Assembly (NCBI RefSeq): GCF_004210375.1
Contig: NC_134829.1
Span: forward strand, 30,520,034-30,584,033
Source of the DNA: Tachypleus tridentatus
Lineage: Eukaryota > Arthropoda > Merostomata > Xiphosura > Limulidae
Reading direction: 5' to 3'
DNA: 64,000 nucleotides
In this document: in pieces, positions 33,722-62,704 of the stretch
How positions within the stretch are numbered: the stretch's first letter is position 1
How the letters are laid out: each line of letters starts with the position of its first letter
Translations under genes and position numbers: made by a program
Notes under the pieces: model-generated
The model's input: only the letters and a program-made list of their open reading frames with translations
Database searches by the model: none
Told to the model about the DNA's origin: nothing

Positions 33722-33731
33722 TGCAATAAGT

Positions 33732-37068: not shown

Positions 37069-37224
37069 ATACCTCGCCCCATTGGCATCACTCACCAGTC
37101 ACCTAGTACTGAAGTGAAACAGTTTTTTCAGCCCTCATCAGACTATTTGTCAATAGTCCAACAAATAGCACTTCTGTCACCAACTTCACAGACAGCTGTG
37201 GGTACTCTTGTTGTAGGAGGATTT
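37069..37224 (+). CDS. Marf: mitofusin, internal exon (pre-membrane linker)
   Basis: Second mitofusin exon found, 52 codons, phase 0 at both ends (cttcttag acceptor, gtaagt donor). It starts IPRPIG and ends TAVGTLVVGGF, corresponding to the MFN2 region with RPIPLTP and GILVVGGVVWK. The variable middle is rich in Ser, Gln and Pro, as in other mitofusins. The last residues are the beginning of the first membrane segment, which continues in the next exon. The reading frame is intact. Confidence 0.93.
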
Positions 37225-38115
37225 GTAAGTTTTTGTACTATGTTTTCATGATGTCAAGACATGTTAGTCCAATTAAATTTTTAAAACCTTTACTACCTTA
37301 ACCACATACATGTAGTTAGATTCTGTGGACATTAGCATATAAGTTTGACTCATTGACACTTACACTTGGTTGTGATAAATTACAAATTATAACAAAAGAC
37401 AAAGTAAAAATGACCAGTATAAACTATTTAAATCACAGCATAATATTTTTTCTCTAGAACTTCACCTTATGACTAACCATTGTTGCTGAAAACTGTGAGA
37501 GGATTTAATTATTAATTCACTTTAATATACAGCTAAAGTATGTTACATTAACCACCAAAATTAATCTTTAGGAGATATGCGAAATCCTAATGTGTCTATG
37601 TGTAATGCTTCATCTCTAGCTGTCTAAAAATTATTCACAATGGATCTTAGTGTGCAACATTGCATTGTGTCAATCCTTTTGCACTAGTAACTAGGACATT
37701 CAAAAAAATTTATGGTATGTTAATTAGGTACAATATAATTATGTAAAAGAAGTGCATCAGACTCTCCATTTTATTTTTAGTACTAGTGTTGAAATTTCAG
37801 AACAAATCAGTTTTCAGTAAGCAAAGATGATAAATTATAACCAACATTTTTAGATCTTCACACTTATTTTACACAGTTCTGTATGTGTACTAATATTATG
37901 AATTTCTGGAAATTATAAAATATTTTTAATTTTTATGCTCTTGTTTGATATCAAAATGTAGGCATGCTTTTACAAAACAAACATTCTTGTAAACTGAACA
38001 TGTCTCGTCATCATGGATTTCTACACCAAATCTGTAGTGGAGAAAAAAGGTTTGGCTGAAATGTAGCAATAAAGCTTCTAGCTGTTTTTCTTATCAATGT
38101 CTTCACTCTTTGTAG

Positions 38116-38312
38116 TTAGTTTGTACAGTTGGCTGGAAGATCATAGTACTGACAGCGGGTATTTATGGGTTATTATATGCATATGAGTGGCTAACATGGA
38201 CAAACAAGGCTAAAGAACGTGCTTTCAAGAAACAATACGTCAACCATGCTACCCGTAAGCTGAAATTAATAGTTGACTTGACTAGTGCCAACTGCTGTCA
38301 CCAAGTTCAACA
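38116..38312 (+). CDS. Marf: mitofusin, exon with membrane segments and start of HR2
   Basis: Third mitofusin exon, about 65 codons plus two bases (tttgtag acceptor, gtaagag donor). It completes the paired hydrophobic membrane segments ([20 protein letters not shown]) and then has the highly conserved [17 protein letters not shown], as in MFN2 [17 protein letters not shown]. It ends with SANCCHQVQ, the start of the HR2 coiled-coil region used for tethering of mitochondria. The split codon CA|G joins correctly to the next exon to give QQELS. Confidence 0.95.
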
Positions 38313-39038
38313 GTAAGAGCAACTTCTTTTGTCCATAAGACAAATAAATTGGATATAAATTCACATCTTCAGAATTTGCATCTATGTAATGGAAGAACAT
38401 GAATTTCAAAATTGTTTACTATTTTAATGTTTTAATGTCTAATACAAAATATTATGTCCTTTATCTTGCCTAGAAATATTGGAAAAGCAGTGGAATTTCA
38501 GAAAGAATATATTGTCTAAGAATTTTTCACAATAGCGTTTAAGATAGTTATTTCTGAAAAAGTATAGGTGGCAAGTTGATATTCTGTTTCATTATTTTTT
38601 GATAAAAGTGTTTTGTTTCTCAAGAGTACTTGTGTTAATACAATTGCAATAACAAAATATAAACTTTCAACTGGAACAATACATTCATTTGTTTTGTATT
38701 TGATATTTGTGACTCACTTTTAACTAAGGTTTTGTATTGTGTCAGAATCATTACTTGTGTTTTGTAAACTTTCTCAGTATAAATGACAAACATTTTGTTA
38801 AGATAAACAACTGGTAAAAGAAGAATATTGTATCTGCATTAAGGGCTATAGATATATTGTAATGTAAAAAAATATATTACTAGAAAAAGAATCCCAGCAC
38901 TTTTAATGTCAATGAAATATTTTTTTTTTAGTTTTTTTTTGTAATGATACTTTTGAATTATCATAATACAACAGAAATTTCAGAAGGTCTGCTTTCAGGT
39001 TTACTGAGTAGCTTGCAGAAAGAAATTTTTGGTTACAG

Positions 39039-39173
39039 GGAACTGAGCAGTACCTTTGCTCGACTTTGTCAGCTTGTTGTTGAGGTGATCAATGAAATGC
39101 AGGGAGAAATCAGAACACTTGACACAGAAGTAGAGAAGCTGGACGAATGTTTAACCATGTCGAGGATTCTGAG
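39039..39173 (+). CDS. Marf: mitofusin, HR2 coiled-coil exon
   Basis: Fourth mitofusin exon, encoding most of HR2: ELSSTFARLCQLV followed by an acidic/leucine heptad-like stretch, VEKLDECLTMSRILR. It aligns with MFN2 QQELSGTFAHLCQQV through KAKLLRNK. It begins after a ggttacag acceptor and ends at AG|gtaaag in phase 2. A 5.2-kb intron follows, holding a LINE in the same orientation. An upstream ATG ORF that overlaps this exon is intronic read-in and not a separate gene. Confidence 0.94.
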
Positions 39174-39713
39174 GTAAAGATATTTAAAGAAGTGCTTCAG
39201 TTTGGTATAATCAGTTTTCTTCAGCCATTTTGATAAACTTTCACATCTTAAATGAACATATTAATAATTTTTTTATTAAATTTAAGTAACCAAATTGATG
39301 TTTTCAGCAGCCTTGTCTACATTTTTTTCCAATTTGAACTCATATGAAAACATAGTTTCAATTCTCTTAAACATCATCTTGTATAGCGTTCCAAAGAAAC
39401 ACAAACACAATTACAGTACAACTTGGCATGACAAACAAATGAAAAGCACAGCACTCTCGTCAAAGTACTGTGTCCAACTTACCCTAATTGCAGTCACTCT
39501 TCAACTAAGGAAAAGTCAGCTATTTCATGTGAAATAACTTTATAGATGCTGATGTTGCATTATAAAATTAGTTTCAACATACTGACTGTTTTCATTTTGA
39601 TTTAATCTTTGTTTGTACACTTGTCAGTTTTTCATTTAAAAGTCTAAAGAAGTGTTAATTAGATAAACGATACAGTTTCTGCCCTTGTGAGAAAACTAAG
39701 CTATATATTTTCC

Positions 39714-42700
39714 AGTATTTTACGTGTGCTCGTTGCACTGGCAAGGACCATGTTGCCTACAAGTGTGAAACAGACCCTCATTACATTAATTGCAATGGCT
39801 CTCACCTTTCCTACTTTTGTCATTGCCCTAAATGGTTGGAAGAAAAAGAGGTGTTGCATTTGAAAACAATTCATAACATTACCTATCCTGAGGCTTGAAA
39901 ATTGCTGTCCACCACGTCATCTCGGACATATGCTGCTGCACTTCGTACCACAACTACTGTGGGAGTGCAGACAGATCTCTCTGTGCTTCCTAAAGAATTG
40001 TTCTCCAAACAAATGAAAAGTCGTTTGACCTCCATGGTTAAAAAAGTTGATGAATCAACTTCAACACCCATCTCTGTTCCCAAAATACATTCCACCAAAC
40101 CACAAGATCCGCATTCTTTGGTTCCAGGTACAGGCATTTTCACCTTCCATCTTCCACCCCAAGATGCAAAACAATCATTCATTCACATTTTCAGTCTCTG
40201 GAATTTCCTTCCAACAGCAGAAACCTGCACAATCGACCCAGGGAAGGATCATGGAGGATGACTAAGGACAGACAGGAAAAAGACGTGATCATAAACAGAA
40301 GGATTTTCCACCCAATTTGCCTACACGTAAATAAATATGGCCACCCTGATACAATGGAGCTGTCGAGGTTTACGTTCTAATTTGGATGACATCAAAACAC
40401 TGATTGCTTTCTACCATCCTGTTTGTCTTTCCTTACAGGAAACATTTCTGAAACCTTTTGGCAGTTTTCTGTATAAAAATCAGCATGTGCTTACCCTGTC
40501 TTTGCCACTTGACACACCCTTGGAGGCTGCAGCCATTCATGTTTCCTTGGGTCATATCATCACTGTTTGTTCTCTCTATCTGTCACCTGGGGAGACATAT
40601 GATCAATCCAGACCTTGATACTCTCATTGAACAGTTCCCATTCTTTTTCATCCTGTGGGACTTTAATGGACATCATCCCCTCTGGGGAAGTGCTGATATT
40701 GATGGAACGGGTTGCTCTGTAAAGCAAATGCTCTCTGATCACAACCTTTCTCTTTTCAATACTGGCTCTTCTACTTATTTCCATGCACCTTGTTAGTCCT
40801 TTACTGCTATTGATCTCTCAATTTGCTCCCCTTCATTGTTTTCCCATTTTTCATAGAGGGTTGACAATAATCCATGAGGCAGTGATCATTTTCCTATAAT
40901 CTTGAGAGAGACTGGCTGTAGTCAATTCCACCAGACCTGCATGCCCCAGTGGAAGCTGGATCAGGCAAACTGGCCCTCTTTCACTGCTGTCACAGAACTT
41001 GATCCTGCCATCGTCTGTAAGCCATTAATAGACGACTGTGTGGCAGCAGTAACTGACTATTATACAAGCAGCTGCTCAATGCATTCCTAAAACCTTGACC
41101 ACGTTTTCCACTATATCCTCGTCCATGGTGGAATCCTGCCTTCCACATGGCACACAAGGCTCAAAACGGGCCTGGAATACTTTCCGAAGATATCCCACAC
41201 CCTCAAACCGCATTGCTTTCCAGCAGCCCCTTTCACATCTCATCTCAGTCGTCGAACATGAGTTATATTGAGCGGCAGCTACAGACTGCCCTCAATTGTT
41301 TACTGAAGTGGACCACAGAACGGCTTTAACTTCTCTCTCTCTAAAACTTTTTTTGTGCACTTTTGCTGACAATAGGGTATTCACCCTGATCCTGAACTCC
41401 AAGTTGTACTGCCTATGATCCCTGAGATTGAGTTCTTGGGGCTTATCTTTTACAATAAGCTGACCTTTATACCACACATCAAGCAGCTACAGGTTAAATC
41501 TACAAGAGCACTGAACATTCTCCGTGTCCTCTCTTCCACCATCTGGGGAGCGGTTTGACGTTCTATGCTAAAGATGTATTGTGCTCTTATTCGATCGAAA
41601 TTCGACTATGGATCACTGGTCTATGGCTCTGCTAGACCATCAGTCTTAAAGATGGTAGACCCTATTCATCATCAAAGACTTCTGCCTCTGCACTGGGGAT
41701 TTCTGCACTTCCCCAGTTCAGAGCTCATACATAGTTTCATGAATCTTCTTTGCACCTCCGCTGTTTGCAACTGTCTTTACTATATGCTTCGAAATTTCAT
41801 TCCTTACCAAAGTATCCCACCTAGGGTTATGTTTTCCTTCCTTGATGGGACATGCTTTATCAGACCAGACAGTCTGCCATTGTTCCTTTCAGCCTTCTTG
41901 TCCAGGTGCATGTGGATGAATTGGGTCTGTCCGTGGATGACATTGCTGTATTCATTGGTCAACCCATCCCATCATGGCTTCTTACAGTTCCCAATTGTAA
42001 CATATCTTTAAGCCATCTGAGAAAAGTAGACACTCCTGATTGGAAATACTGTCTGCTATTAGCTGAACATCTTTTGGACCATCCTTTCATTCTTTTTTAT
42101 TTAGATGGTTCAAAATCAAGTGACTCTGTGGGCTCTGCCATGGTTTGTTGTGGCTCGATGGTTGCATGCAGAATCCCCTCTACAGCTTCTGTGTTCACTG
42201 CTGAACTGTATGCCATTTCTCTTGCCCTGGATCACAAAGAAGCTAAGCAGTACTCAAACTGCACTATTTATACTAACTCGCTTAGTTTTCTACTGGACCT
42301 GGAATCGCTTCACATTGGTTCACATCTTGTTCTTGCCGATATTCAAAACTGACTGGCCCATTTCTCTTTAACATCTACTTCTATACAGCTTTTCTGGATA
42401 CCGGGCCACGTTGGTATTCGCAGGAATGAGCTCACCGACACTGCAGCTAAGTCTGTCTGCTCTGGCACTATCACAGCTGTGCCTGTCCCATACATGGACT
42501 GTGGTCCTGTCGTCAAGACTCGGCTCCATGCCAGCTGGCAGTCGACTTGGAGTGAACAACACGAAAACAAACTTTTCCAAATAAATCCCTATATTGGACT
42601 TTGGCCATCTTGCTTCTGTAAGGATTGGAAAGAGGAAGTTGTTCTAACTAGACTATGCATTGGTCACAGTTTTTTAACTCATCATTTTCTTTTATCTGGA

Positions 42701-43481
42701 ACTGATGCACCAGTGTGTAGTTTGTGTAAAACTCAGATCACGATAAGCCACATTTTACTTTCTTGTCATCATTACGACTCTCAATGATGGCACCATTTAA
42801 AACATGTTCTGTCCCGAGGTTTGTCCATAACGTTAGACAGTGTTATCGGTGATGGTGACACTGTCCAACGTGATAATGCTTTTAGTTTTTTAAAGACCAT
42901 TAATCTTTTTAATGCCATTTAAGTTTTTAATTTATACGTTACAACTTTTTAATATGGCGCCCTTTTAAAAATCACAGTTCATCTAGTTCGATTTGAAATT
43001 AGAAACCGACCATAACATTAAATAACGCGAAATCAGGATTGGAAATGCCAACTTCAGGTGACTAACGCTGCTGTTTTAACTACCCATTAGTCATCCTGGC
43101 GAGTTATTATTGTAATTTTGCTACACGTCTTTTAAAACCTTTTTATTACTTTCCTTTTTGAAAATAGTCATAACGTCAAGTAACTCGGAACCAGGACTGG
43201 TAAGGCCAACTTCAGGTGACTGACGGTGGTTTTTGTACTTACTTGTTAGTCTTCCTGGCGAGTTATGATAATTAGTTACGCTACAGAAAGGCCTTCACAA
43301 GTTGAATTGCTGTAGTTTTTCTCTTAACATTGTAGACTAGATGTACACATTGGTTTTATACTATTTATGTTTTTAACTTTGTTTTGTTTTACCTTAATTT
43401 CCTTTTAACTTTTTACCGGATGTTTGGCACAGATAGCCTAGCTACTTTGTGCCATAAAGCACTAAATCAACCAACCAACCA
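39714..43481 (+). mobile_element. I/Jockey-group LINE, RT core deleted, inside mitofusin intron
   Basis: Non-LTR retrotransposon copy in sense orientation within the last mitofusin intron. In order: the end of ORF1 with a zinc knuckle (CARCTGKDHVAYKC, about 39727-39768); ORF2 starting near the ATG at 40337, with an AP-endonuclease-like N-terminus (QWSCRGLRSNLDDIKT, LSLQETFL); a jump near 41230; the RT thumb region (EIEFLGLIFYNKLTFIPHIK, then ALIRSKFDYGSLVYGSA); an RNase H domain (LDGSKSSDSVGSA, VFTAELYAISLAL, FWIPGHVGIRRNEL); and a C-terminal zinc motif (CSLC, HILLSCHHYDSQ) at about 42715-42786. Several stops and frame breaks plus the missing RT palm make it inactive. The 3' end is near 43481 in CCAACCAACC. 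Confidence 0.88.
42986..43275 (+). repeat. two-unit repeat in the LINE 3' UTR
   Basis: Two diverged copies of about 110-130 bases, starting near 42986 and 43163. Both contain the blocks GGCCAACTTCAGGTGACTGA (or close variants) and TCCTGGCGAGTTAT. They lie between the LINE's last ORF and its CAACC tail and so belong to its 3' UTR. Confidence 0.7.
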
Positions 43482-44407
43482 ACTGAGTTCGAGATATATC
43501 TGTAAAGTACTGGTGATATTTATCATATAACAGTGGAGCAGTACCGTTGTGATTATTGCACTTGTAAATTATTATTTATACAGTTATTATGTATGTTAAC
43601 CTTTATGTGTATCAGCTTATTAATTTGTTAATTACAACTTTAATACTACCAAACAAATATATTTCAGTTGGATGATTTTCAAAGTTTGGCATACTAAAGA
43701 CTTGTGATTTAACATTAATAGCTAACATGCTAGGCAGTCTTCAAGGAAGACGTGTATCATTTAAACATGAAAATATTATTGTCGACACAGTAATAAATCA
43801 TGAATTTTCAAGTAAAAAATTGTTTTACTGGACATTTCTTAATTTTTCACAATTGAACTAGTTCGTTGTGAAACACTTCCAAGTTATTTAAAGAAGAGTT
43901 CATACATTACATTACCTGCTGAAGTTAGTATTCCATGTAATTATCTTACTTACCCCTAGGTGGTAGTGTCTTGTTATTGTTACTCTTTTCATTTTCCTTT
44001 TGCTTTACTTTGGAAAACAATCACCTTTCCACAACTGTCTGCAAGCAGTGAAGAGTGTTATAGGGGTGAGACATAGTGGGCTTAAGTACCCACATTTCAC
44101 TCTCCTAATTTCTATTTCTTTTAATTATTTTGTTATTTAATTTTGATTATTATTATTTATGAACTTCTTCAAATGACTAGCAAATGGAGGTTAAAACTGA
44201 CAGGGGGTGTATACCCACTGCAATGTGGGTCCTATTTCCACAGTTACCTCCTAAACCTTAAGTACATTTTATATCCCACATTATAGCCTGTACTTTGGGG
44301 ATCCTTTTGATTTGTGCAACTTTTTTATTTTCGTTTATTGGAATGTGATTATATAAATGAACTTATTTTTGGTTGTTGGTATATTTTTCTTTTTGTTCTT
44401 TCTGTAG

Positions 44408-44477
44408 AAATAAGGCTGGTTACTTGATGAGTAAACTTGAGACTTTTAGCCAACAGTACCTTCAGTGTGACCAGTGA
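44408..44477 (+). CDS. Marf: mitofusin, terminal exon
   Basis: Last mitofusin exon. Joined to the previous exon it reads RNKAGYLMSKLETFSQQYLQ and ends CDQ-stop (TGA at 44475-44477), matching the MFN2 end [20 protein letters not shown]. The acceptor is ttctgtag. All five exons keep compatible phases, so the 3' half of this gene looks functional. The 3' UTR follows, with an AATAAA at 44701. Confidence 0.95.
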
Positions 44478-44725
44478 AAATTGTTCAAGTTATTAACTAA
44501 TGGCAACTCTATATTTGGTGTAACTGTGTTGATTATGTAAGTTTTAGATCCACCAGTCATTGATTCAGGAGTGTTGATGTAATCAGATAGTTTTAGAAAA
44601 ACTGTTTTTGTAGAAAAAACTTTATACTCTAGCACAGAAATTATTTGTATGAGTCATTGATGATGAATGTGCTCAAAATATTTGTTGATGTGAATACTGC
44701 AATAAAATGCAAGTATTTATACAAA
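44478..44725 (+). terminator. Marf: mitofusin 3' UTR with polyadenylation signal
   Basis: AT-rich sequence after the mitofusin stop codon. The first good AATAAA is at 44701-44706, about 225 bases after the stop. The exact cleavage point cannot be seen. The next gene on the right (45440-45795) is on the opposite strand, so the two transcripts converge. Confidence 0.6.
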
Positions 44726-45439
44726 TAATACAAATTAAAATACATAAATAAGATATTTTTTATGCTCCGTCATCTGCTTATTCTTAACATTTTGCAAAGT
44801 AATTGATAAACAGTAAGAAATAATAAATGAATTTGTAGCCTGATCTTGATTACTTGTTGTTATTTACATTTTGATATATGTTATAAGTAAAAGACAGTTG
44901 ACTGATTGTTTATCTTGTATTAAGTAGGTGTTTGTATTAGGCTATTCTTTTGGAGATGCAATTAAGTTACTCTTGTGGAATATCTGAAAGTAGTTTAATA
45001 ATTGATTTAAATTTTGTTAAGATGAGTAGGAACTGTTGTTGTTGTTTAACTTTGAGGTCTATAATTTTTATCTGCTCAGAGCATCTTATAATGAAAGGTT
45101 TAAGCAAAGCAGTACAGAAGTATATTTACATGAGATGAAAATTGCGATTGAATAACTGTTTTAAAATAACGTAACTCAACGCTAATAATGTGAAAACGTT
45201 TAAATATAGTATTTTAAAAAGTGTATAGAATCTGTGTGTAAGCCAAAACTGTTATTATACAGAGCTTTAATAAACTATTCCATATGGAAATGTGTAATTC
45301 TAGAAACATTATATTTTTTGAGTTTCTGTGACCTACGTTTTATTGTTTGGGAAATATCTATGTATACATACATACATATACACCTGGTGGTCTTCTGCAC
45401 TTTTCAGATATTTAGGCTTGTTTATTTTCTCTTGTGCAT

Positions 45440-45795
45440 TTAACTTGTAATTAAGAAGGTGACAGAAGCTTGTTCTGATGAAAGTTGAGGTTTATTTGTA
45501 AGTCTGTGCAAGACCATTGCTTCAGATTTTTTCAAATAATGTCTCATGTTTAGTTCACTATTGAAGTAACTGAAATTCAAAACTAATTTTGAATCAGTAA
45601 CTGAAACATGTTTATCTTTTATATGCTGTTGTAACAACAGAAGATCATAAGCTTCACGATAACAGGATTTTATAGGAAAAGTATCTTCAAAGAAAGTGCT
45701 CATATTTAAACCATTGATTATTGTGTGCCCCACATTACCAGTGGATTTTACTAAAGATAAATCAGTTCTTCCAGCATTGTTTCTGTGTTTTTCAC
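45440..45795 (-). CDS. unrecognised protein, probable terminal exon
   Basis: Open block on the - strand of 118 codons including the stop. It is preceded by a good acceptor (atctgtttcag at 45796 and above). It includes NNAGRTDLSLVKSTGNVGHT, FFEDTFPIKSCYREAYDLLL, SKLVLNFSYFNSELNMRHYL and ends SVTFLITS-stop. An AATAAA on the - strand lies at 45421-45426, just after the stop. Amino-acid use looks like a real globular protein and there is no repeat similarity. I do not recognise the family. It converges with mitofusin, and its earlier exons would lie to the right, possibly among the CTH blocks. None was found. Confidence 0.45.
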
Positions 45796-47170
45796 TGAAA
45801 CAGATAGTGATGTTTAATGAAATTTCTTGTGTAAATTGTTGATTAACTGATTGAAAATTATTGTATTTAAATCATGGGTGAATACGTTAGTGATTCAATA
45901 ATATAAGAAAGAATTACTAGTGCTTCTCAAAGATAACCTTTGTAATACTGGACACATTGTAAGATTTTTTACAATATCTCAGGAGGGTACTATGTACCAT
46001 GTTTATGTGGAAGTGCCTTCACCTCTGTCTTAGGTTTAACACATCAGTGTTACAGCTTTTAACTTATAAAATGTAGATGAATAAATTGAAAATCAGCATC
46101 TTAAATATTTGATGTCTCACAGAAAAAGATACATAGTTTTATGGTTGAATATTTGAATTAATTTGTCACATACCAGTTGCTTGTTAAGGAAATTATAATT
46201 TCAGCAAATTTCTGGTTTGAAAAATACACTGCATGTCTTTTTTTAACTGCTCATTTTTTTTATAAGTATTAAAATGTTTATTGAAAAATTTATGGTTCAC
46301 ATTCAACAGTTACTTTCCATAAGCATGTAGAAATATTTGGTGCATTGAAAGAGAGATGTTATTTAATTGTAAAGAACATACAAGCCATTTCTGATAAATA
46401 TCTAGATGTATTTTTAACTTGTAACAGGATAAAGCTATTTGTTGTAATTTAGTTCTTAATAAATGGATAAGATACAACAATGCCATTGCTGCTGCTTTCT
46501 TTATAAGTAATGTTTGTAAGATTTATTAAATAAAAGATTTGAAGAATATAAAATAAACTTTGACTAGTTCACAAAATATATAGGTTTCAAGTTTTTTTTT
46601 CGCACGCTAAATTCAAATGTACGAGTTTATCACACATACTGCACATTTCACGTCTGCATTATTGTACAAATTAATTGAAGAAAATAAGCGAATATAGAAA
46701 GCAGTTAATTTTTTATATGTATTTCCACAGAGTAGTGAACATTTTAAATGTAACTTTACCCACAATTATTAGATAAACCTTCAGGAAAGATCTGATTTGT
46801 ATTCCTTATATAAAGAATAAGTTACTCCCTTGGTGTTATTTATATTTAATAATTTACTCTTTTCAAAGCAATTGTGAATAGAAAAAATCACGTTTGTAAT
46901 GATACATGTTATTCAAACACAAAAAGTTAACTTTAATTTACTTTCAAAGACTAAAACACTAAAAGATGTACCTTAGAACGACTGAATGTTTTACATAAGT
47001 TGTGTAATATTCTAAATTATGTTTATAATAATAAAGGCACTTGCAAAGTGCACGCCCTCCCTTTCTTTTGCAGTAACCAGCCTAGAATGTACACCAAAGA
47101 GTTCCTCAACCTGAAACATTTACTACCATTGTAAGAAAAGTAGTTAACTTTAAATATAACACTTATGTTT
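45796..47170. other. no gene recognised
   Basis: AT-rich DNA between the unknown terminal exon and a SINE. If that exon is real, its intron starts here on the - strand. Confidence 0.6.
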
Positions 47171-47181
47171 GACTTGTATTT

Positions 47182-47456
47182 GGCCCAGCATGGCCAGGCA
47201 CTCGAGTCGTAATCTGAGGGTCGCGGGTTCGAATCCCCGTCACACCAAACATGCTGGCCCTTTCAGCCGTGAGGGCATTATAATGTAACGGTCAGTCCCA
47301 CTATTCGTTGGTAAAAGAGTAACCCAAGAGTTTGCGCTGGCTGGTGATGACTAGCTAACTGTCTTCCCTCTAGTCTTACACTGCTAAATTAAGGACGGCT
47401 AGGGCAGATAGCCCTCGTGTAGCGTTGCGCGAAATTCAAAACAAACAAACCAAATC
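47182..47456 (+). mobile_element. SINE family A with target-site duplication
   Basis: Forward copy from GGCCCAGCATGGCC to the CAAACAAACC tail. It is flanked by GACTTGTATTT (47171-47181) and GACTTGCATTT (47457-47467), an 11-base duplication with one difference. The head is of the GGTTCGAATCCCCGTCACAC type. Confidence 0.95.
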
Positions 47457-48089
47457 GACTTGCATTTAACAAAAGTTTATTATTTGTTTTGGACAGGACA
47501 ATCAATCGTTTGATTAAAATAGCAAATTTATTTCCAATTATACTGTAAAGATGCACACAGGACTGAAAGTAATTTCTGTTGTCTGCTGAACTAATATACA
47601 CGTACTTCATTAAAACTGGCTATTCTATAACATTTGTGTACTAATATAATCAAAGTTTATAATAAAGACGTACTTGAGACAGTCTTAAATTCTGCAACAG
47701 GTAATATGTAATACAATACTTAAATAACCAAATCTGTAATGTTATGCATTAAGAGTTCACACATTTTTCCTGATCAGGTTGATATTTATTGCAGTTTTTC
47801 ACACATTTTTCCCGATTTAACTGATGGTCATACCGAATAATTTGAAGGACTTTTCCGTATGCGAAATGGTTAATTGTGTTATTAACAGTAATTACTTATT
47901 ACATTTTAATAAAAAAAATACACAATCTTTTTCGTTCGTTGAGTACACATAAACACTAGTGTAAGAAAATCATATGAACTTTATTAATGTTTTAAATGTT
48001 AGTTTGATTGTTTTATCGTCCCTCTAACTTTTACGTTTTCAAATTATAAAACTAGTTTATCTTTCAACTAATAATCAATTCCATTACAT

Positions 48090-48523
48090 TCAGACAGAAA
48101 CAGTTTTATCCAGTGCCTGTTGTAGATCGTTTAGTAAATCCTCCGTATCTTCCAATCCGATGTTTGTTTGTTTTGGAATTTCGCACAAATCTACTCGAGG
48201 GCTATCTGTGCTAGCCGTCCGTAATTTAGCAGTATAAGACTAGAGGGAAGGCAGCTAATCATCACCACCCATCGCCAATTCTTGGGCTACTCTTTTACCA
48301 ACGAATAGTGGGATTGACCGTCACATTATACGCCCCTACGGCTGGGAGGGCGAGTATGTTTAGCGTGACGCGGGCGCGAACCTGCGACCCTCGGATTATG
48401 AGTCGCACGCCTTACGCGCTTGGCCATGCCAGGCCCTTCCAGCCCGACAGATAGACGTATCAAATTATCTGTAATTCCATTTTTCTGTATTCCTCTTCTA
48501 TCCCGTTGTGACTAATATCAGCT
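48090..48523 (-). pseudogene. CTH: CTH last exon, interrupted by a SINE
   Basis: Terminal coding block of CTH on the - strand, after a tctaatag acceptor. It reads ADISHNGIEEEYRKM (human AIMTHASVLKNDRDV), then loses about four bases, then ITDNLIRLSVGLE (human SDTLIRLSVGLE). At that point a 275-base SINE (48161-48435) is inserted. After it the protein resumes as GLEDTEDLLNDLQQALDKTV and stops at TGA 48090-48092 (human GLEDEEDLLEDLDQALK). The repeated GLE on the two sides is the target-site duplication. The protein cannot be made normally from this exon. Confidence 0.9.
48161..48435 (-). mobile_element. tRNA-derived SINE (family A) inside a CTH coding exon
   Basis: SINE in reverse orientation: the GTTTG-rich tail is at 48161 and the tRNA-like head ends with CATGCCAGGCC at 48435. 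It is flanked by cttccaatccga (48149-48160) and cttccagcccga (48436-48447), a 12-base target-site duplication with two differences. It belongs to the subfamily whose head reads GGTTCGCGCCCGCGT rather than GGTTCGAATCCCCGT. Confidence 0.93.
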
Positions 48524-49267
48524 CTATTAGAACAGATACAATTACTTTTATCGCGGTGCACAGGTCAAGAAATTGGTTGCAACATAATTCCTTAAAAACT
48601 AAAACGACTACAATGAAACAAACCCTTAAAAACTTCAAAATGTGATTACGACAAATAATATGATTGTAAAACAAAACAGTTCCAACAAATCGTGTAAAGT
48701 ATCATAAATAATGTTCACTAGTGGAGAAAATCATAAAAATAATTGACGAAACTCTTATGTCAATTCGAACATAAGTTGATCTAGTAAACGTAATTCTCGT
48801 CAACGTAAACTAACCATTAATCGTTACTAACTATTTTGTCTGACTCAGTATTAACGTGTATGTTGACATTAGATGTGATGCTTATAAAAGTGTGCAAGTG
48901 CTGAGATCAGGATGATAATTACAGTAAACTGTTGGACCTCATTAATAATTACAGCGATACCAAATCTGAAAGGCTACAATTGGCCTAATATTGATCTACA
49001 TATGTTTTTTTACGTTATATATCATGATATAGCCGAGATTTTCGTTATTAATCAACCATATCCTCAGATAATGATATTTAAATATACTTTAAATAGCTAG
49101 TGCGATACAAATCTGGTGTCGGAATTTAAACAAGTTCGATTCTAACGTGAGAATAAATAACTAAAAAAACTCATAAATCAAGAACTAATAAGGATAGTAG
49201 AAAGTGTATGTTGTGCTTACGGAGTTTATGTAAATATTTTGAAGACTATTTATTGCATGTAAATACT
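48524..49267. other. CTH intron-equivalent, no feature
   Basis: AT-rich sequence upstream (on the - strand) of the last CTH block. Nothing else recognised. Confidence 0.6.
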
Positions 49268-49395
49268 TTTGGCCGTCCGTGGCTGAGCGGTAAAAATGAG
49301 AAGCTTATAATAATTAAAAATCGGGTTTCTTCACCCGCGGTGGGTCAAATACAGATAGCTCAGCGCGTAGCTGTGTTGTTACCAATCACTTAATA
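49268..49395 (+). mobile_element. short SINE family B
   Basis: Forward copy: GGCCGTCCGTGGCTGAGCGG, CACCCGCGGTGGGTCAAATA, ACAGATAGCTCAGCGCGTAG. Confidence 0.72.
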
Positions 49396-49908
49396 ACGTA
49401 TCACGTGTATGTGTTATTCGCAAAATAGCAAAACAAAAAAAACTAAAAAATTTCTAATTATAGTTCGGAATATAATCGCTATGTTTTGCCAAATTCAACG
49501 TTTGGTACTACTTTGTGTAACATAGTCTGATAACGGAAACTATTTACCTGCTGTTCTGTAGGATAGCTGTATTGTGTCTCAAACTTTTCCTTGCATACGT
49601 GGCGGTTTGTTTACGACTGTCGTTTTCCTTTGATCCAGTGTTATTATTGGTCAGTTACAGAGAGCAGGTGAATTGTAAACGTAGTTTTAACGTTTGTAGA
49701 CAGACTCCTTCCTGTCCTGGGAGAGTTAAAAGTCGGAAATTGAAGTCTGATTTGTCTGATTCATTCTGAGGACTGTGTATTTATCCACTGGCCATCATCT
49801 AGAGTCATCTGTTCATTTCCCTTTTGTTTTATTTAAATACAATTTATGTATTTATTTCGTTTTTAACTTCACAACTATAACCCAATAGTCCTTTACCACC
49901 TTTGTGAT

Positions 49909-50178
49909 CGACATGGCCAAGCTGTTAAGGCGCTCGACTCGTAATCCAAGAATCAGGGGTTCGAATCACTGTCACACCAAACATGATCATTTTTCAGCCG
50001 CGCGGTCGTTATAATGTACGGTTAATCCCACTATTTGTTTGTAAAAGAGTAGTCAATGAGTTGGCGGAGGGTGTAATGACAGGCTGAGTTACCTCTAGAG
50101 TTATGCTGATAAATTAGGGAAGGCTAGCGCAGATAGCCCTCGTGTATCTTGGAGCGAAATTCATAAAACAAACAAATA
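49909..50178 (+). mobile_element. SINE family A, moderately diverged
   Basis: Forward copy: CGACATGGCCAAGCTGTTAA, GGCGCTCGACTCGTAATCCA, body blocks with small changes, and an ATAAAACAAACAAAT tail. Confidence 0.9.
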
Positions 50179-50604
50179 TTTTCTCCGTGTCCCTGACAGT
50201 TAAAACCTCAAACCGGACTTTGCCTCTTTAATTCTACTGATAACAAATCACTGATACAGAGTCTGTCCTTCTGTGTAAAGGATTCCGAATCTCCAATTGT
50301 TTCAATAATCAGGTATCTCTGTTATATTTTTGCTTCCATTTTACACCAAGCTTCGTCTGTTTAACTCCATCAATAGCAAATCACCTTTGTAGATCCTGTC
50401 CTGCATGCAGGATCCCAAATTTTTAGTAACTGCGAGAATCAGGTATCTGTGTTCTTGGATTATTATAGTCTTACTGGTATAATCCTTTAGGTTTATTGTT
50501 TGGTACTTTCGAAGTATGGGTTTCATTTAACTTGTAAATTATATGATTGATGTTACAACTTAAACATCTATGTTCAATTAAAAAAAGAAAAGAGTTTTAC
50601 TTAC

Positions 50605-50780
50605 GGTATTTCTACGAGACTTGCTACGCAGCCCAAGCTTGCAGCTGAATTAAATATTCTGAGATTGTTAACGAAGGTCTTGGCTTCTTCCTTTCCTCCT
50701 GTGATGTAAAAAACTGATTATTCCACTAAATCCTCCTCACTGTTTCTTGGCGACATCGTGTTGAGGATGACTTTCTAGCC
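50605..50780 (-). pseudogene. CTH: CTH exon with in-frame TGA and frameshift
   Basis: Block bounded by a ctttctttag acceptor and a gtaagt donor on the - strand. It starts GLESHPQHDVAKKQ (human GLPSHPQHELVKRQ), then meets TGA where human has Cys. It continues GGFSGIIS, then a run of six T where five would hold frame, then FYITGGKEEAKTFVNNLRIF and NSAASLGCVASLVEIP (human FYIKG, KLFTLAESLGGFESLAELP). The phase of the next exon fits only if one T is extra. The active-site Glu in human AESLGG (Glu339) is Ala here. The two lesions and the lost residue argue for a pseudogene. Confidence 0.85.
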
Positions 50781-51957
50781 CTAAAGAAAGTAAGGTTTAA
50801 GCTACCATCTTAACTCACTCATTATTTAACAGATAATAAGTAAACATTATATGGTTTTGAAGTTTAAAAGAAGAATGTTATGTTTTACACAGTCGCACTG
50901 TTAAAAATATTAATGCAATCTTACAATAAAATTTTCACTAATACCTCACGTCAAAAAGCCTTTCCAACTGTAATACTGTTAACACTAGCAGGTGCGAAAT
51001 ACATTGATTTGAATTAAAACCGATTCTTAAATCAGTGATACATAGACATCTCTGTTATGATTTTGAACTATAAATATATTTACTTTTAAAAAATCAGATG
51101 GTCAAGCACTAAAGTTTCAAGTTTTTGACAGAAAGAAAGGTGTGAGACAAATATATTCAATAATAATAACAAAACATTCAATTAGGTTTAGGAATTTAAG
51201 TAGTGTACGTCAGTCTCCCAATTAGGAGTTTCAAGATGCTATATTTCGCTGAATTTTTTCCGCCCTTTTAGCTGTGGGAACAATATACTGTGACAGCTAT
51301 CTCGGTATTCGACTGAGAGTAACCACATAATCAGAGGGTCCTGCTGACCAGTTGCCCTATTTTTGATCAATTGTAAATTACGAATGGTTATGTCTGAAAC
51401 TTTGGTTAAGGGGTATTTGACCTGGATGTTTAGCTCATGTGTTACATATAGCACTCTTCAGCTTACAAATAGAAGTACCACACACACTAGTGTGTATTTT
51501 CTATATATACAACGACAGTCAAATCTAACATGTAACCTAAATATTCGACTATGTACTCTTTTATTTATTGTTTTGACAATGCAATACGATGATAAGTGTC
51601 AAATTTAAAGAAAGAGTATCAAGTTCGATATTTAGACCAATTATTTAGGTGTTGTTTGACAACTCCTCACAAACTGACCAAAGAAATAATTATACTATTA
51701 ATTTGATAAGTAACGGACACTTACCACGCAGATTTTGCAAAGTAATGTTTATATGTATAAATAACAATGAAGTGCATGATTTTTGAGTAAAAACCAATAT
51801 ATCAGTAGCCTAATAGTACTGAAATATAAGTTTGGTAGTCTTTAACAGGCAAGGCTGTGAAAGAGATGTTGATGGAAAGCAGGAAGATGTTGATAATAAT
51901 ATAAGTAAATCATTTAAATGGTAGTAATACGTTTATTGGTAAAGTTATCTTCAGGAG
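50781..51957. other. CTH intron-equivalent, no feature
   Basis: AT-rich DNA. Short frames at 51239-51608 are not convincing. Confidence 0.6.
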
Positions 51958-52306
51958 CTTAATACCTTCCTTAGAACAGAAAATAATAATATCTCAAATT
52001 ATTTTAAACAGCTTAGTACCTTCCTTAAAACAGAAATGAATAACATCCCACGTTATCTTAAACTGCTTAATACCTTCCTTAAAACATAAATTAATAATAT
52101 CTCACGTTATCTTAAACAGCTTAATACCTTCCTTAAAACATGAATTAATAATATTTCAAATTATCTTAAACATCTTAATACCTTTCAGAGAATAGAAATT
52201 AATAATATCTCTAATTATCTTAAACAGCTTAATACCTTCCTTAGTACAGAAATTAATAACATTTGAAATTATCTTAAGCAGTTTAATACCTTTCATAGAA
52301 TACATA
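51958..52306 (+). repeat. 54-bp tandem array, about 6.5 copies
   Basis: Units start CTTAATACCTTCCTTA and contain GAAATTAATAATATCTC and TTATCTTAAACAG, repeated at 54-base steps with moderate divergence. No gene is associated with it. It lies between two CTH exon blocks, so it would be intronic if that locus were transcribed. Confidence 0.85.
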
Positions 52307-53168
52307 TAGCAATGAAGAATATCCAAACAATATGAAACAACATATTTGTCATAGTTGTAAATGCAAAATAAGAAATTAGGAACTGAAAAAATTTAGCACA
52401 TGCTTAATGCTCAAAATGTCATTATACGACTTTTGTTATGATATGAGGTTACAAGAATCGAGACATAAAAAAGACGCGAAAAATTTAGCTTGCATTATTT
52501 CCATTAGACCTGAATTATCTGGTGATTCACCGTGACACGTTCTTTGTTTGTTTCCTCAGATAAGATTCCACAAGAAACAATAACACTATTCTTAGTTTTA
52601 GTTTACGAGATAGGGTGAATATAGACAAAAACTGATTATCAGCTAATAAAAATCAAAATGAGAAACATTCCAGTAAGCGCAGCCACACATTTTAACCGCA
52701 ATAAAATATATATATCATTCATAACTTAATATGGGTTCAATTTTTTCTTACATCTTGTTGTAATCATTTTTCGGTTTCGTACGGGAAAAATATTGAATTA
52801 TACAATTGACCTTTTTTTTCTGCTGAGTTTTGACAGGTGAGAGGTATATAAAGTTTTGTTTTATATATCTAAAACAATTTTCAATGAATCGTAATTGTCC
52901 TCTTGAAAAACCAAACGGAACTAGATAGAACATAATTGTATAATTGCCGGCTGTAAAACACAAATACCTCAAGCTTCCATTATTATCGTCTCAAGAACTA
53001 AAACCAAAATGGAGAATAATACACATATAGATCAGGATTAACTCGTAATAAATGAATAACTGAGTTGTTAAAACGTGAGAAATAACTATAATGAAACAGG
53101 ATGAAAGGTAATGTAATGAAAGTTAGCTGAGAACAATAGAGCTTCTCAACAGTCTCTTGTTTTGACCC
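52307..53168. other. CTH intron-equivalent, no feature
   Basis: AT-rich DNA between the 54-bp array and a SINE. The minus-strand frame at 52748-52972 is not recognised. Confidence 0.6.
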
Positions 53169-53442
53169 TGGGCCAGCATGGTCAGGTGGGTTAAGGCGTT
53201 CGACTCGTAATCTGAGGGTTGCGGGTTCCAATCCCCGTCAAACCAAACATGCTCGCTTTTTCAGCCGCAGAGGCGTTATAATGTAACGGTCAATCCCACT
53301 ATTCGTTGGTAGAAGAGTAGCCCAAGAGTTGGCGGTGGGTGGTGATGACTAGCTGCCTTCCCTCTACTCTTACACTGCTAATTTTGGGACGGCTAGCGCA
53401 GATAGCCCTTGAGTAGCTTTATGCTTAATTATAAACAATATA
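53169..53442 (+). mobile_element. SINE family A with an unusual tail
   Basis: Forward copy with a normal head and body. It ends GAGTAGCTTTATGCTTAATT instead of TTGTGCGAAATTC. That ending is the tail type of the short SINE family B, so the copy looks like a chimera of the two tail types. A short TTGACC repeat on each side may be the target-site duplication. Confidence 0.88.
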
Positions 53443-54473
53443 TTGACCTAAGAGAGAGAGACACAATCCTTGGACAAAATAAACATTTGCGATATCAGTC
53501 CAAATTTTAGGGGTAAATTATTAAATTCCAGTTTTTTTTTTTACCTTATTATTCACACAGTATATTGCTCTAGTTTTTACCATATGACTCACATAGTTTG
53601 GTACTCTACCATTTACCTTGTTATTCACACAGTATATTACTCTAGTTTTATTTTATTATTCAGAATATGGTATTTTACCTGATAAATCACGCAGTTATCG
53701 ATCATTTTAAAACTTTTATCGATCTTTTATTTAGTTTACTTTTTGTACCTCTTTAAGATATATTCTTTTCATTGTTACTAAATCGTTTTTGTTTATTTTT
53801 TGAAGAACATAATATAATGATCATTTCTCTATTTTTAAGAGAAATCTCAGTTTTGTTATTGAATGGAATACCTTTCAAACAATACAGTTTTTACTAAAAT
53901 AATAGAAGAATTAAACTAAGTTATTAATTAATTGACACTTGATCGTGAACTTTAATAGACGAATTCTTGAAAAATGCCGTATTTTATTATTTTTCAATTT
54001 ATTAATTACATTAACCAGTTCAGTGCCGTAGACGAGATATATCGCTCAAGCCGATTGGTAAAACAGTGCCACGGACGAGTTAATTCGTTCTTAATAATAC
54101 CTAACTTCAACGCTAGTTGTCAGCACCATACATGCATTTGATCTACTTACAAATTGTTTCACTTTCAATCCAAATTAGCCCACTGTTGTTTTTAAACAAT
54201 AAACATATTGCTGAAATTATCACTCTATAATATAAACCTACATCAACAACAACCCTCGTCGTTAATAAGGATGTAATACTAAGATGTCGTTAATTAGATA
54301 AGTGTATCTTAACACTAACTAGTCTTAACCTGTTGACTACCAAGTATTGCAACTGCTACGGCAACTCCAAACCAAGTTCAAAATACAACTAATGCTTCCT
54401 AGTTTTAATTAATCACACCAAAACATGCAAGTGCTTCTACATGGAGGTTAACAGGCGTTAAATATTCACTCAC
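53443..54473. other. CTH intron-equivalent, local low-copy repeats
   Basis: Near 53540-53690 a TTTACCTTATTATTCACACA-like phrase recurs about four times. Otherwise AT-rich with no gene. Confidence 0.55.
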
Positions 54474-54626
54474 CTGGATAGAGAACCTTCTTCACCATCG
54501 GGTGTCCTTCCAGAAAACAAGCAATATCTAAAGCATTTTTTTCGTGCTGACGCATTCTTACTGGTAAGGTCTTCAACCCACGACAGACGAGATAACAATC
54601 AAAAGGTGATGGAACCGGACCAAGTG
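54474..54626 (-). pseudogene. CTH: CTH exon, best preserved
   Basis: Exon-like block with a ttttttcag acceptor and a gtgagtg donor on the - strand, 153 bases and fully open. It reads LGPVPSPFDCYLVCRGLKTL, then PVRMRQHEKNALDIACFLEG, then HPMVKKVLYP, followed by a split Gly codon. Human CTH has LGAVPSPIDCYLCNRGLKTL and FLESNPWVEKVIYPG in the same place. CTH is the PLP enzyme that splits cystathionine to cysteine and also makes H2S. This block alone would look like a normal gene. The decay is in the neighbouring blocks. Confidence 0.88.
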
Positions 54627-55784
54627 CTGAAAAAAGTGTGTTTGTCGTAGTACAAGTGCATAGAAAGCTTTTGTTTTCATTTCTGGTGCGAGGTGTGTAT
54701 ATGTATTGATCACTAATGAATTTACGATCACGTCTTTTATTGTGGAAAACAATATGTCATGAAGATTTGCTTTAGTTTTCATCGTTTAAATATTCAAATC
54801 TCCTTAATGTTACAAGAATTCACAGAGTAAAAAGTTGAACTTAAAAACTGTACTTTATTTGATTTCTGTGAAAGAAAGAATATTGCTTGTTTTTCAGACT
54901 TTATACAGAATATATATATATATATATATGTGTGTTCAATATTTTATTGTAATAATGCTTTGACGAGAAAGTTAATTACGTTATGTTTGATCGTTGTAAA
55001 ATACGTAATAGTGACTATTTATTAGAGATGTTCGTAAGATGTCATCTCTTTCTTGGAAATTGAGCTCAGAGATCTTTTAAAAATTTTGAAATTGAATGAA
55101 TTACATTTTACAGCTCTTTATACGGTCTTGTTCAAAATGTTTGCATACTGTTTTACATCGATCTTATTGTCTACGAGCATGAAGTAGGTGTTGAGTAAAT
55201 ACCAGTGTAATAACAGAGAAGGTGGCGTATGATTGGACAAACATGTAAGATTCGTTATTCTGGTTTGTATAAGCTGTTTTGAATATTTGTTGGTCAAAAT
55301 ACACATAAACACCTGTTTTGTTTAGACGGGTATGCTTTTGGTATAATCGTTTTCCAAAACAAATCAACGCTTTCTTCAGAAACCTTTTCTGTACTTCGTG
55401 TAGGATCATACCTTCTCTCGTGCCAGAAGAGATGTGGCTTCAAATTGTTCGACTCTCCAGAAACGGTATAAAGCAAATGAACGCTGTCAGAAAAGAAGGA
55501 TAATCCCAACGTACTGTATTCAGAATCTAGAAATATCGTCGTATTAGAGGAAACATTGTTCGAGGAGAACATACTGATTGACGCCGAAAAACTACTTAAG
55601 TGGATGACCTTGTTTTGATCATGTTAACAGGTAACGGTCAAAAGAAGTCTTACAACACATTTCGACAGGGACAGCATGAACATATTATTTACAGCTATTA
55701 CATAATATAATTTATCTTGGAGGAGTGTTTTTGGGCAAGAGCACATGCTAACTTACAGGTTGGACCCTGACGACATGTACTTAT
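54627..55784. other. CTH intron-equivalent, unresolved frames
   Basis: Two overlapping minus-strand frames (55164-55409 and 55294-55572) in a less AT-rich patch look mildly coding. I do not recognise them and see no clear splice sites. A TA run lies at 54910-54928. Confidence 0.4.
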
Positions 55785-56175
55785 TTTGGATAAGTCCTGT
55801 TTCCGGCTTGTTAAAATAATAAAGTCTCTCTTTCCTACAAGAAAAACACAAGAGGTGGTGCAGTACATGTTTGGGCAAGGTTTAATGATAACTATGTGTT
55901 CTAGGATGACAATGATACTGCTCACAGTGCACATATTGCACCGTGTTATCTTTACCAAAAAGAAATTACAAGATTCCCTTAGCCAGCAAAGTCTCCAGAT
56001 TGTAAATTCCATTGAGAACTGTTGTGCAGGACTGAGCCAGAAAATTGCTAACAACTACACTAAACTAGTTACCATAGCTGGCTTGCAGTGCATTCTAGTA
56101 ACGAGTAGATTACATTAATAGCCTTATCTACAGTATGCCACGCCACCTTGCAGAGGTAATTAAGGTACAAGAAGA
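55785..56175 (+). mobile_element. old Tc1/mariner transposase relic
   Basis: Diverged fragment of a second Tc1/mariner-type transposase on the + strand, in broken frames. It has a GGAVHVWARFND-like stretch near 55852-55890, then DNDTAHSAHIA near 55905-55940. WPA-SPD-like residues follow near 55975-56005, and MPRHLAEVIK near 56130-56165 corresponds to the family's C-terminal end. No terminal inverted repeats were recognised. Confidence 0.55.
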
Positions 56176-56734
56176 ACCGACCAACTGCTGAATTTTTTAT
56201 AAGAACTGCTATTTATGTACAGACGCTAACTGTATTAATTTAATGTTATATTTTGGCATTATATATGTTTCAGTAAGGTTTTGTTGTGATAGATAAAATT
56301 TTGCATTACACATCTTTCTCCAGGTGTCTGATAAAAGTGCTTATTGTTCTAACAAATCGTTCGTGATGTCCATGGAACCTGCCTCATTACATAAATTAGG
56401 TATGTAGATGTTTAATATAGCGTGCATTTTTCAGTTTGACAGGGCTAAATGTAATTTTTTTCCATCTTCATGATAATATTTTATTTGTTACAAAATATGT
56501 AAACATTTTGGCCAAGACTGTAATGTCGAAATTTTAAAATCAGGAGGAATAAAAGATTGAGAAATTTATTCTTTTTAAAATGGTTTACTATTTTCCAGTT
56601 ATCACAAATATATGTATATGTAATATATGAAAAATATGCATTAATGATCTCATGGTGAAGCTTTATTTTATTATATCATCGTGATGTTTCGTGCAAAACA
56701 AAACAATTCGTCCATGTGGATATATATATATATA

Positions 56735-57891
56735 CTCTTCAAAAAAAAGAAACGCAAAAGGCAAAATTTGAGACATATTTTTAACAAGTTTATTCCCGGT
56801 AGTTCTTTTGACATGTGTAAACTTTGCACATTCACTGCTAAACATCCAAATTCTGCAAAGGCGAAGTCCACGCTCACTAGTTGAAGTTTAACGTCACTCA
56901 ACGTCAATAACGAGTATGCCCCCCCCCGTGAGCATCAATAACTGCTTGGCATCTCCTGCCCATGGAAGCGATGAAATGACGAATCACATTTTGTGGAATG
57001 GCTGTCCACTCAGCCTGCAAAGCTGCTGCAAGCTGAGGTAGAGTCTGCAGTTGAGGTTGTCGCCGTCGCAGACGTCGATCCACCTCGTCCCAAAGATGTT
57101 CGATGGGGTTTAAATCTGGTGATCTGGAGGGCCAGGGAAGAACGTTGATGTTGTGGTGTCTCAAGAAGACAGTGGTGAGTCGGGCTGTGTGAGGACAGGC
57201 GTTGTCATGTTGAAAAACGTCGTTGATGTTCACCATGATGGGTTGCACATGGGGCCTAAGAATTTCGTCGACGGTTGCGTACGGTCTTATCGGAAATTCT
57301 ACGCAGCCCTGGTATGGTTGAGGCAGTAGACGTCGCAGTGGTGGTCCTATCTCGAAGGTGACGTAACCGGATGTAGCGATTTTGTGTGGGCGGGGTCACA
57401 CGAGGTCTGCCAGATCGTGGACGGTCACAAGTTGATCCATGTTGTTGGTGACGATTCCATAGCCTTGTGATGGTGCTTGGGTGGATATTCACAGCTCTGG
57501 CAACATCTGATCGAGATTCGCCTGCTTCCAACGACCAATGGCGTTGTTGCGTTGTGCTTCTGTCAGTCTTGGCATAACTGTATTGCGTGTCGGTGGCTTA
57601 ACATTGAGCTATGGAAACCGAGAACCCGTCACTTTTATAGGGATTTTGCACATGTTGCACTTGCAGAACATGTAGATCTCTCAAACAAATTTATTGGACA
57701 CGAATGCGTTTTGGCGAAAAATTTGATGTTTTCCTCCGTTTTCAAAGTGCACAACTTTTATTGTCATTTTGGTCTGACAATCACTGCCTTAGCACGTGTG
57801 ACATCACATACTCTGAGCTTGTAACGTTATTACATATATTTCTCTTTAAAATAACAAAAAATATCCCTTTTGCGTTTCTTTTTTTGAAGAG
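56735..57891 (-). mobile_element. Tc1/mariner DD34E transposon with internal deletion
   Basis: DNA transposon flanked by TA and bounded by terminal inverted repeats of about 27 bases starting CTCTTCAAAAAAAGAAACGC on each side (one end has one extra A). On the - strand it keeps the start of the transposase (MPRLTEAQRNNAIGR at 57575) and a helix-turn-helix region (SDVARAVNIHPSTITRLW), one base out of frame with that start. It also keeps the second half of the catalytic core, HDNACPHTA and SPDLNPIEHLWDEV, with 34 residues between D and E. The region with the first catalytic Asp is gone (junction near 57270). The ends look competent but the transposase is not. Confidence 0.93.
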
Positions 57892-58199
57892 TATATATAT
57901 ATAACCTCAAATACATACTACTCAATATTTTCATATCAAAAACAGCGTGAATTTCTATTATGCTTCAGATTCAATTCTTACGTTATAGGTTAATTGACAA
58001 TAATTGAGTCCTTTCTTAATTTTTTTTCAAGTTACTCTTGATCGTCCTTTTATTTAAACTGTTATCAGTTTTTTAAATCGTAAGTGTTACTGGGTGAATA
58101 TTCAGTAATTTTAGAACACAAATTCGTGAGATTACGTACTTTTTTGGACAGTCTATAATCGACAGTAATTTTACAAAACAAATGGTTGAGACAACTTAC

Positions 58200-58277
58200 T
58201 GCGTTGTGCAAAGGATAATCGTTGATATATATCCTTGCTTCTACTCACAATAGATCCCAAAGAGACGTCACAATGAA
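58200..58277 (-). pseudogene. CTH: CTH exon (post-catalytic-lysine segment), diverged
   Basis: A 78-base exon-like block on the - strand with a tataacag acceptor and a gtaagt donor. It reads HCDVSLGSIVSRSKDIYQRL then SFAQR, aligning with human CTH HSDVVMGLVSVNCESLHNRL then RFLQN. The next block (54474-54626) continues with LGPVPSPFDCYL, as expected (human LGAVPSPIDCYL). The conserved NGHSDVVMG is altered here, in keeping with relaxed constraint. The exon with the PLP lysine (KYMNG) should precede it but was not found. Confidence 0.7.
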
Positions 58278-58516
58278 CTGTTATAAATATTCAAAAAGAA
58301 ACAAATCCACCAGCACCTTATGGTCTTTCACAGACTAACAAGAAATAGAAATAATTACTTTTACATCAACAGCTTATGATCTGATTTCTAATGAGGTACA
58401 GAAACCATCACTTTTTACACCAACATATTATGATCCTTCACATAGCAATAAGAAATAGAAATACCTCCGGGCTACTGCACACAAAAATGGACTAGATTGC
58501 ATGACTTTTTTACCAT

Positions 58517-58640
58517 TTTTGATGAAGAGAAACCAACTTGAAATAAAAATATATCTCAGAACGGCTGGTATGTGTATTAACACTTTTATTGATAAGCAAA
58601 GAATAAAGTTTCGACCTTCCTAGTTCATCTTTAGGTTAAC
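58517..58640 (+). repeat. interspersed repeat C, copy 2
   Basis: Second copy: GATGAAGAGAAACCAACTTG, AACGGCTGGTATGTGTATTA and GTTTCGACCTTCCTAGTTCA. It is similar to 7155-7340 through the GTTTCGACCTT block and then diverges. Confidence 0.6.
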
Positions 58641-59439
58641 AAAAGGAGTTTGCAATTGACCGTTATCGGACACATGTCTTAGTGACGAGAGTATAAACGA
58701 GTACGGGATTGTAGGGGCGTTGCAGCAACTTATACAGGAATTAAAACCAAAATAAAGGAACACTTTTATACCCATACTAATTAATAACCTGACATCCAAC
58801 TGCAACTTTTACCATATTCAATTATTTTTCATTATTTATCTGTCTATTTAATAATGACTTGCTTGGATTTTTATATACCTCAAACAAACGTACATAGTAA
58901 AATTAGCCAAAACAGACGTGATGACATATATATTTATTCAAGTCAAAATTCTGCAAGACAGGTTAAATAAAACCAATATCAAAGAATTAGAACCTCAAAA
59001 TAAGTCAGTACCTGTTAAGTTTAAACACATCAACTTATAATATGATGTCTTTTTCATAGCAACTGTTTAAATACTATTCAAAACATGAAAACAATAACAA
59101 TCAAAACGTTCACCTCAAATAACTAGATTCAGTATTATCTTCTAAGTTACCTAACTTACAGCACATAAAATCATAATATCTTTCTGACATTCTCAGAGTA
59201 ATTGTTATTTGAAACACTAAACATGAAAACACAAACCATCAAAATGTTCACCTCAAATGACTACATTCATTATTATTTGAAATTTTTATTCAGTTTTCAA
59301 CTGTTCCTCCAGAATGCATTTATGTTTAAAAAACTTCAAATTGTCAAACAGATCGTAACAGTCATCATTTTGCATCCAAAAACACGCTCAGATCATTGTT
59401 ATAACGTCATTGTGATAGACTGGATTTAACACATCAAAA
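58641..59439. other. no gene recognised, weak direct repeat
   Basis: Two related segments near 59083-59145 and 59217-59275 share AAACATGAAAACA, TCAAAA and GTTCACCTCAAAT. Otherwise AT-rich. Confidence 0.5.
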
Positions 59440-62631: not shown

Positions 62632-62704
62632 ATTTACTACATCTGAAACAGCAGAAAAGTAACAGAAAGGACTACACCAAATGAAATAAAAATTAACTAA
62701 ATAT

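Follow-up and report, generated by a model that had tools for sequence, protein, structure and literature searches.

Does a short retroposon that interrupts the final coding exon of a cystathionine gamma-lyase (CTH) locus of a horseshoe crab record a metabolic change, or does it sit in a copy that had decayed on other grounds? We analyzed a stretch of 64,000 nucleotides (the window; contig C5, positions 30520034–30584033) together with the genome (2.17 Gb, 205 contigs), in which 45 of 63 candidates of a genome-wide CTH profile search were scored against a family cut-off of 27 bits. The Coagulin family PF02035, which is not known outside horseshoe crabs, gave 19 matches in this genome, on C11 and C7, and one exon agrees at 48 of 48 residues with coagulogen of PDB 1aoc, an entry from Tachypleus tridentatus. 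CTH-like exons were assigned by order and strand to copy W in the window and to seven copies on contig C1: A (72.31–72.32 Mb), B (73.56–73.58 Mb), C (73.72–73.73 Mb), D (73.62–73.65 Mb), E (73.505–73.51 Mb), F (73.66–73.68 Mb) and G (76.09–76.11 Mb). The family to which they belong is CTH-like but divergent, and exon 223–279 occurs in it at least eight times, seven times on C1 (72.3–76.1 Mb) and once on C5, in the window; an exon for the N-terminal 38 profile positions was found in none of the CTH-like copies. Very probably the feature is a SINE within a CTH-like pseudogene that arose by duplication and is unprocessed. In the part of the literature that our search reached, no paper was found that deals with this SINE or describes a horseshoe-crab CTH pseudogene.

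The sequence-only reading of this DNA had described a 275-base SINE that splits the final coding exon at a CTH locus and is framed by a 12-base target-site duplication with GLE on both sides. Both observations stand (Table 1): the 12-base direct repeats of W are separated by exactly 275 bases, with GLE codons on either side. The empty site of the paralogues is a single CTTCCAGTCCGA (D and E) or a single ATTCCAGTCCGA (F and G), and because all four SINE-free copies carry only one copy of the target site, a chance repeat is excluded and the insertion is a true one. The element is short, dispersed and multicopy, occupying 12 places in the window (the W insertion counted) and yielding 6640 first-look candidates in the genome, 40 of which were scored, at 95–100% identity. 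A SINE is thereby confirmed as inserted, with target-site duplication, in the final coding exon of the CTH-like W.

Table 1 Features of the CTH-like copy and its surroundings (window coordinates)
Feature	Position	Strand	Remarks
SINE, 275 bases	48161..48435	-	head adjoins 48435; tail (..AAACAAACAAACA) adjoins 48161; repeated element
Target-site duplication, low-coordinate copy CTTCCAATCCGA	48149..48160	.	direct repeat
Target-site duplication, high-coordinate copy CTTCCAGCCCGA	48436..48447	.	direct repeat
Last coding exon, 5' part	48436..48523	-	splice acceptor just above 48523; PADISHNGIEEEYR then GITDNLIRLSVGLE in shifted frame
Last coding exon, 3' part (GLEDTEDLLNDLQQALDKTVSV)	48090..48160	-	normal stop at 48090-48092
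Premature TGA in entering frame	48460..48462	-	due to 4-base deletion near 48484
Exon 265-340 (about)	50604..50781	-	TGA in frame at 50737-50739; one additional T shifts the frame
Exon 223-279, open	54472..54624	-	profile match 69.1 bits
Exon 70-108	63967..64000	-	truncated at the window end, running on to C5:30584113; 24.6 bits, under the cut-off of 27
C5 part similar to C1 CTH cluster	31803..64000	.	sampled: 31.8-39.0, 43.0-46.6, 46.6-56.3 and 56.8-62.4 kb

The tRNA derivation that had been claimed for the element is plausible, as judged from sequence motifs in the W SINE and its siblings. A box-A-like TGGCCA(A/G)G occurs at 48426 in the W SINE and at five other SINE places of the window, and an exact B box, GGTTCGANTCC, is present at three SINE places in the window, the W SINE being without it. 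On the other side of the balance, neither ARAGORN nor Rfam recognized a tRNA in the SINE. The one weak Rfam match, to the Plastid-ycf2 5'UTR (E = 0.21; 18.9 bits, where the gathering threshold is 65.7), runs antisense to the SINE and was rejected as chance.

The best genome matches of the SINE outside the window, among the 40 of 6640 candidates scored, are at C1:73564687 (97%) and C1:73715977 (96%), and both sit within the C1 cluster of CTH-like exons. Over 701 bases around the exon, copies B and C are 97% identical to W and hold the SINE at the same site. The last exon was read in seven copies, with the site filled in three (W, B and C) and empty in four (D, E, F and G); for copy A it is absent among the matches listed (45 of 63 candidates scored). 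The filled copies further have in common (i) four SINE substitutions, absent from the remaining five of eight near copies aligned, and (ii) a 4-base deletion near 48484, found in all three filled and in none of the four empty copies. Shared site, flanks, substitutions and deletion together suggest that the SINE inserted once and that W, B and C descend from this event via duplication. The target-site repeats are identical in B (12/12) and differ at one position in C and at two in W; the letters of the B repeats recur at the empty site in D and in E. The sequence-only reading had dated the insertion by the two mismatches of W; both are private to W and the B repeats are identical, so these mismatches are later changes that postdate the duplication, and a dating of the insertion by them is not supported. 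The single difference in C would likewise be a later, private change.

Seven non-SINE segments of W were compared with the other copies, D being left out of segment 53957–54460. In three of these segments (48436–48814, 49399–50307 and 53957–54460) W, B and C differ from one another by 0.8–2.3% and from D, E, F and G by 3.6–5.3%, the distance from W to B and C amounting to 0.8–1.3%, 1.7–2.3% and 1.2–1.6%, respectively. This grouping places the SINE insertion, in relative terms, between the split from D, E, F and G and the split among W, B and C. A point against our reading is that the SINE itself diverges more between W and B or C (2.9–3.6%) than its flanks do. Other segments group W differently. 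The 61-base segment 48100–48160 yields no grouping, W being 1.6% from both B and D. At 54421–55014 the distance of W is 0.7% to C, 0.8% to F, 1.0% to G and 1.3% to B, so that W is not set with B and C, and at 55207–55726 W is nearest to G and F (0.8–1.3%) as compared with 3.5–4.0% from B and C. Over longer stretches, C, B and D are 99%, 98% and 95% identical to W at 43.0–46.6 kb; at 56.8–62.4 kb, G and F match W at 98% along all 5601 bases and E does so along 5175, as compared with 96% for C along some 3050 bases and 91–92% for B in two pieces. Since the segments group W differently, one tree cannot account for the copy as a whole: W is a mosaic, in which the half with the SINE is B/C-like and the upstream half is E/F/G-like. 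Such a copy would have arisen by recombination or conversion between the SINE lineage, contributing the 3' half, and an E/F/G-like lineage, contributing the 5' half.

The remaining exons show what kind of gene copy the SINE is found in. Introns are retained, as the exons of W lie kilobases apart and have splice-site-like ends, and disabling lesions are present in number: the TGA and the extra T of exon 265–340, the 4-base deletion, the SINE and the missing positions 139–203. Exons 139–182 and 181–203 are absent from the window by tblastn (best chance matches at E = 2.3 and 0.53); the same queries match loci of the C1 cluster at E = 9.2e-11 to 1.1e-26, and exon 70–108, the next one upstream, sits at the end of the window. 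The missing exons contain TKYMNG, which we take to be the PLP-binding lysine motif. As a working CTH enzyme (PF01053), W is thus disqualified by the absence of the PLP-lysine exon from the window. The A, B, C and D loci do contain this exon. With 45 of 63 candidates scored genome-wide, both 139–182 and 181–203 are listed for A, C and D and 181–203 is listed for B, and neither appears for W, E, F or G among the matches listed. One observation argues against a pseudogene: exon 223–279 is open and near-invariant, W differing from each other copy at 0–3 of 153 sites, and this is by itself not the pattern required of a long-dead gene.

The sequence-only reading implied that a CTH gene still working in this lineage was inactivated by the SINE. 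Whether it could have done so depends on the order of the lesions. In all three filled copies the SINE is accompanied by the 4-base deletion, and it could precede that deletion. The in-frame TGA of exon 265–340, in contrast, is common to W and the SINE-free copies E, F and G, at a position where copy D has TGT, a conserved Cys codon; the extra T is confined to W. By parsimony the TGA would be older than the SINE, in which case the insertion probably struck a copy that was already broken. This order is uncertain: the exon has been lost from B and C, whose similarity to W breaks at 50307, and in the region of the exon W is only 2.2–2.6% from E, F and G, as against 3.6–4.6% in the adjoining segments on each side. 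Because W is unusually close to E, F and G at just this place, conversion could have carried the TGA in later. Weighed together with the missing PLP-lysine exon of W, and with the state of CTH elsewhere in the genome, a killing of the gene by the SINE is unlikely.

At C4:3.33–3.36 Mb, seven CTH exon matches lie between profile positions 39 and 381, with the exons open where read; two of the seven fall below the family cut-off, and positions 110–133 and 204–225 are unmatched. The joined C4 peptides have a cystathionine gamma-lyase as their best PDB match (1.2e-118), and copy D matches the same enzymes more weakly (4.7e-87). A normal-looking CTH gene thus appears, by its exon sequences, to be kept on C4, and its completeness is putative in view of the two unmatched intervals. 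Another CTH locus, with five matches, is found at C1:134.04–134.06 Mb. A single degraded CTH exon (130–183) at C6:99858513–99858677, by eye C4-like, is another pseudogene fragment. With W broken and a normal-looking CTH elsewhere, the locus reflects ordinary gene decay and says nothing on cysteine or H2S, on which the insertion had been thought to bear; nor is there evidence that CTH is absent from the animal. The alignment with other CTH copies of the same genome, proposed along with that reading, bears out a real SINE, present in W, B and C; the metabolic interpretation is not supported.

The position of W on a second contig was traced through its flanks. Sequence similar to the C1 cluster starts at 31803–31806. 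To the left of 31803, repeats apart, the sole near-identical match outside the window is on C5 in the stretches tested: window positions 3000–31806 have an inverted duplicate on C5 at 28.976–29.011 Mb, about 1.5 Mb away, which has 98–99% identity (tested at 3.0–11.5 and 31.0–31.8 kb) and ends where the C1-like block starts. W may therefore have come to C5 inside a segment that starts where the inverted C5 duplication ends. The flank of this duplication matched only itself, repeats apart, and did not lead to a right-hand end of the block. The roughly 97–99% identity to C1 copies along long stretches might suggest that W is artefactual and represents a haplotype of the C1 cluster left unmerged in the assembly. 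This is very unlikely, since W joins B/C-like and E/F/G-like halves, keeps an exon lost in B and C, and continues at 31803–31806 into sequence whose near-identical match is on C5. Elsewhere in the window, 13420–19831 is taken up by two long tandem arrays, of 27.8 and 32.3 copies, whose repeat unit measures 106 bases (78% matches). Overlapping broken ORFs at 40337–42787 give the impression, from their sequence, of a decayed retrotransposon; three ORFs at 40.3–42.4 kb matched no Pfam family at E 0.01.

We then consider what would be translated from the filled copies. A tail of about 30 residues, gained by reading through the SINE, had been predicted for W. From the acceptor, the entering frame reads PADISHNGIEEEYRKMELQII (the eleventh residue being D in copy C), and the 4-base deletion shifts it so that translation stops at 48460–48462, upstream of the SINE and separated by 12 bases from the repeat edge at 48447. 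The entering frame stops ahead of the SINE in all three filled copies. A SINE-derived tail of 36 residues does exist in another frame than the entering one, the frame on which the prediction was based; the predicted read-through product is not supported. The intact last exon of copy D, for comparison, matches profile positions 334–380 at 2.3e-9. In E, F and G the frame extends beyond the region homologous to CTH, where it joins an unrelated open frame at least 60 residues long; for copy F, the downstream open frame of 108 residues matched no Pfam family at E 0.01. W, B and C all retain the splice acceptor and an open exon 223–279, which would favor expressed copies with a new, SINE-encoded C-terminus (exonization); judged from the reading frames, such expression is extremely unlikely, given the early stop in each of them, the lack of the preceding exon in B and C, and the TGA and frameshift within that exon in W. 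The evidence calls for no function of the SINE at W.

It is barely conceivable that the TGA at the conserved Cys codon of W, E, F and G encodes selenocysteine and the copies are selenoproteins: the TGA stands for the TGT of D, and E, F and G are otherwise in frame through that exon and the last, but no Rfam family reached its gathering threshold at seven loci around E, F, G and D (a search without positive control, and a SECIS could lie outside these loci), and no PLP-lysine exon is found for E, F and G among the matches listed (45 of 63 candidates scored).

A SINE carried by a duplicated, unprocessed CTH-like pseudogene therefore remains our reading of the locus. A wider proposal, which we regard as doubtful, is that the CTH-like copies on C1 and C5 constitute a recombining duplicon in which interlocus exchange goes on producing mosaics across two chromosomes, with D perhaps kept as a divergent second CTH. 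The filled and empty SINE sites serve to order duplications in the CTH-like cluster of the horseshoe crab, and the case shows that, where a SINE is found in a metabolic gene, paralogues should be checked before a metabolic change is read from it.

Comparison with known systems places the element and its host copy as follows. Like tRNA-type SINEs, the W SINE is about 275 bases long with a 12-base target-site duplication, many dispersed copies, a box-A-like motif in the head, with an exact B box in siblings only, and a short A-rich repeated tail; unlike them, its tRNA origin was not confirmed by ARAGORN or Rfam, and it was not matched to a named family with the tools used. Relative to cystathionine gamma-lyase (PF01053; PDB 2nmp and related chains), exon 223–279 of W is alike (69.1 bits), whereas positions 139–203 are missing and the last two coding exons are broken. 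Retroposons that predate duplications are known in unprocessed pseudogenes, as in Alu-marked segmental duplications. As in these systems, introns are kept here, several independent lesions are present, and filled and empty paralogue sites give the relative order of insertion and duplication. The present case differs from them in that the host is a horseshoe crab, the paralogue is CTH-like, and W is a mosaic of two sublineages that lies on a second contig.
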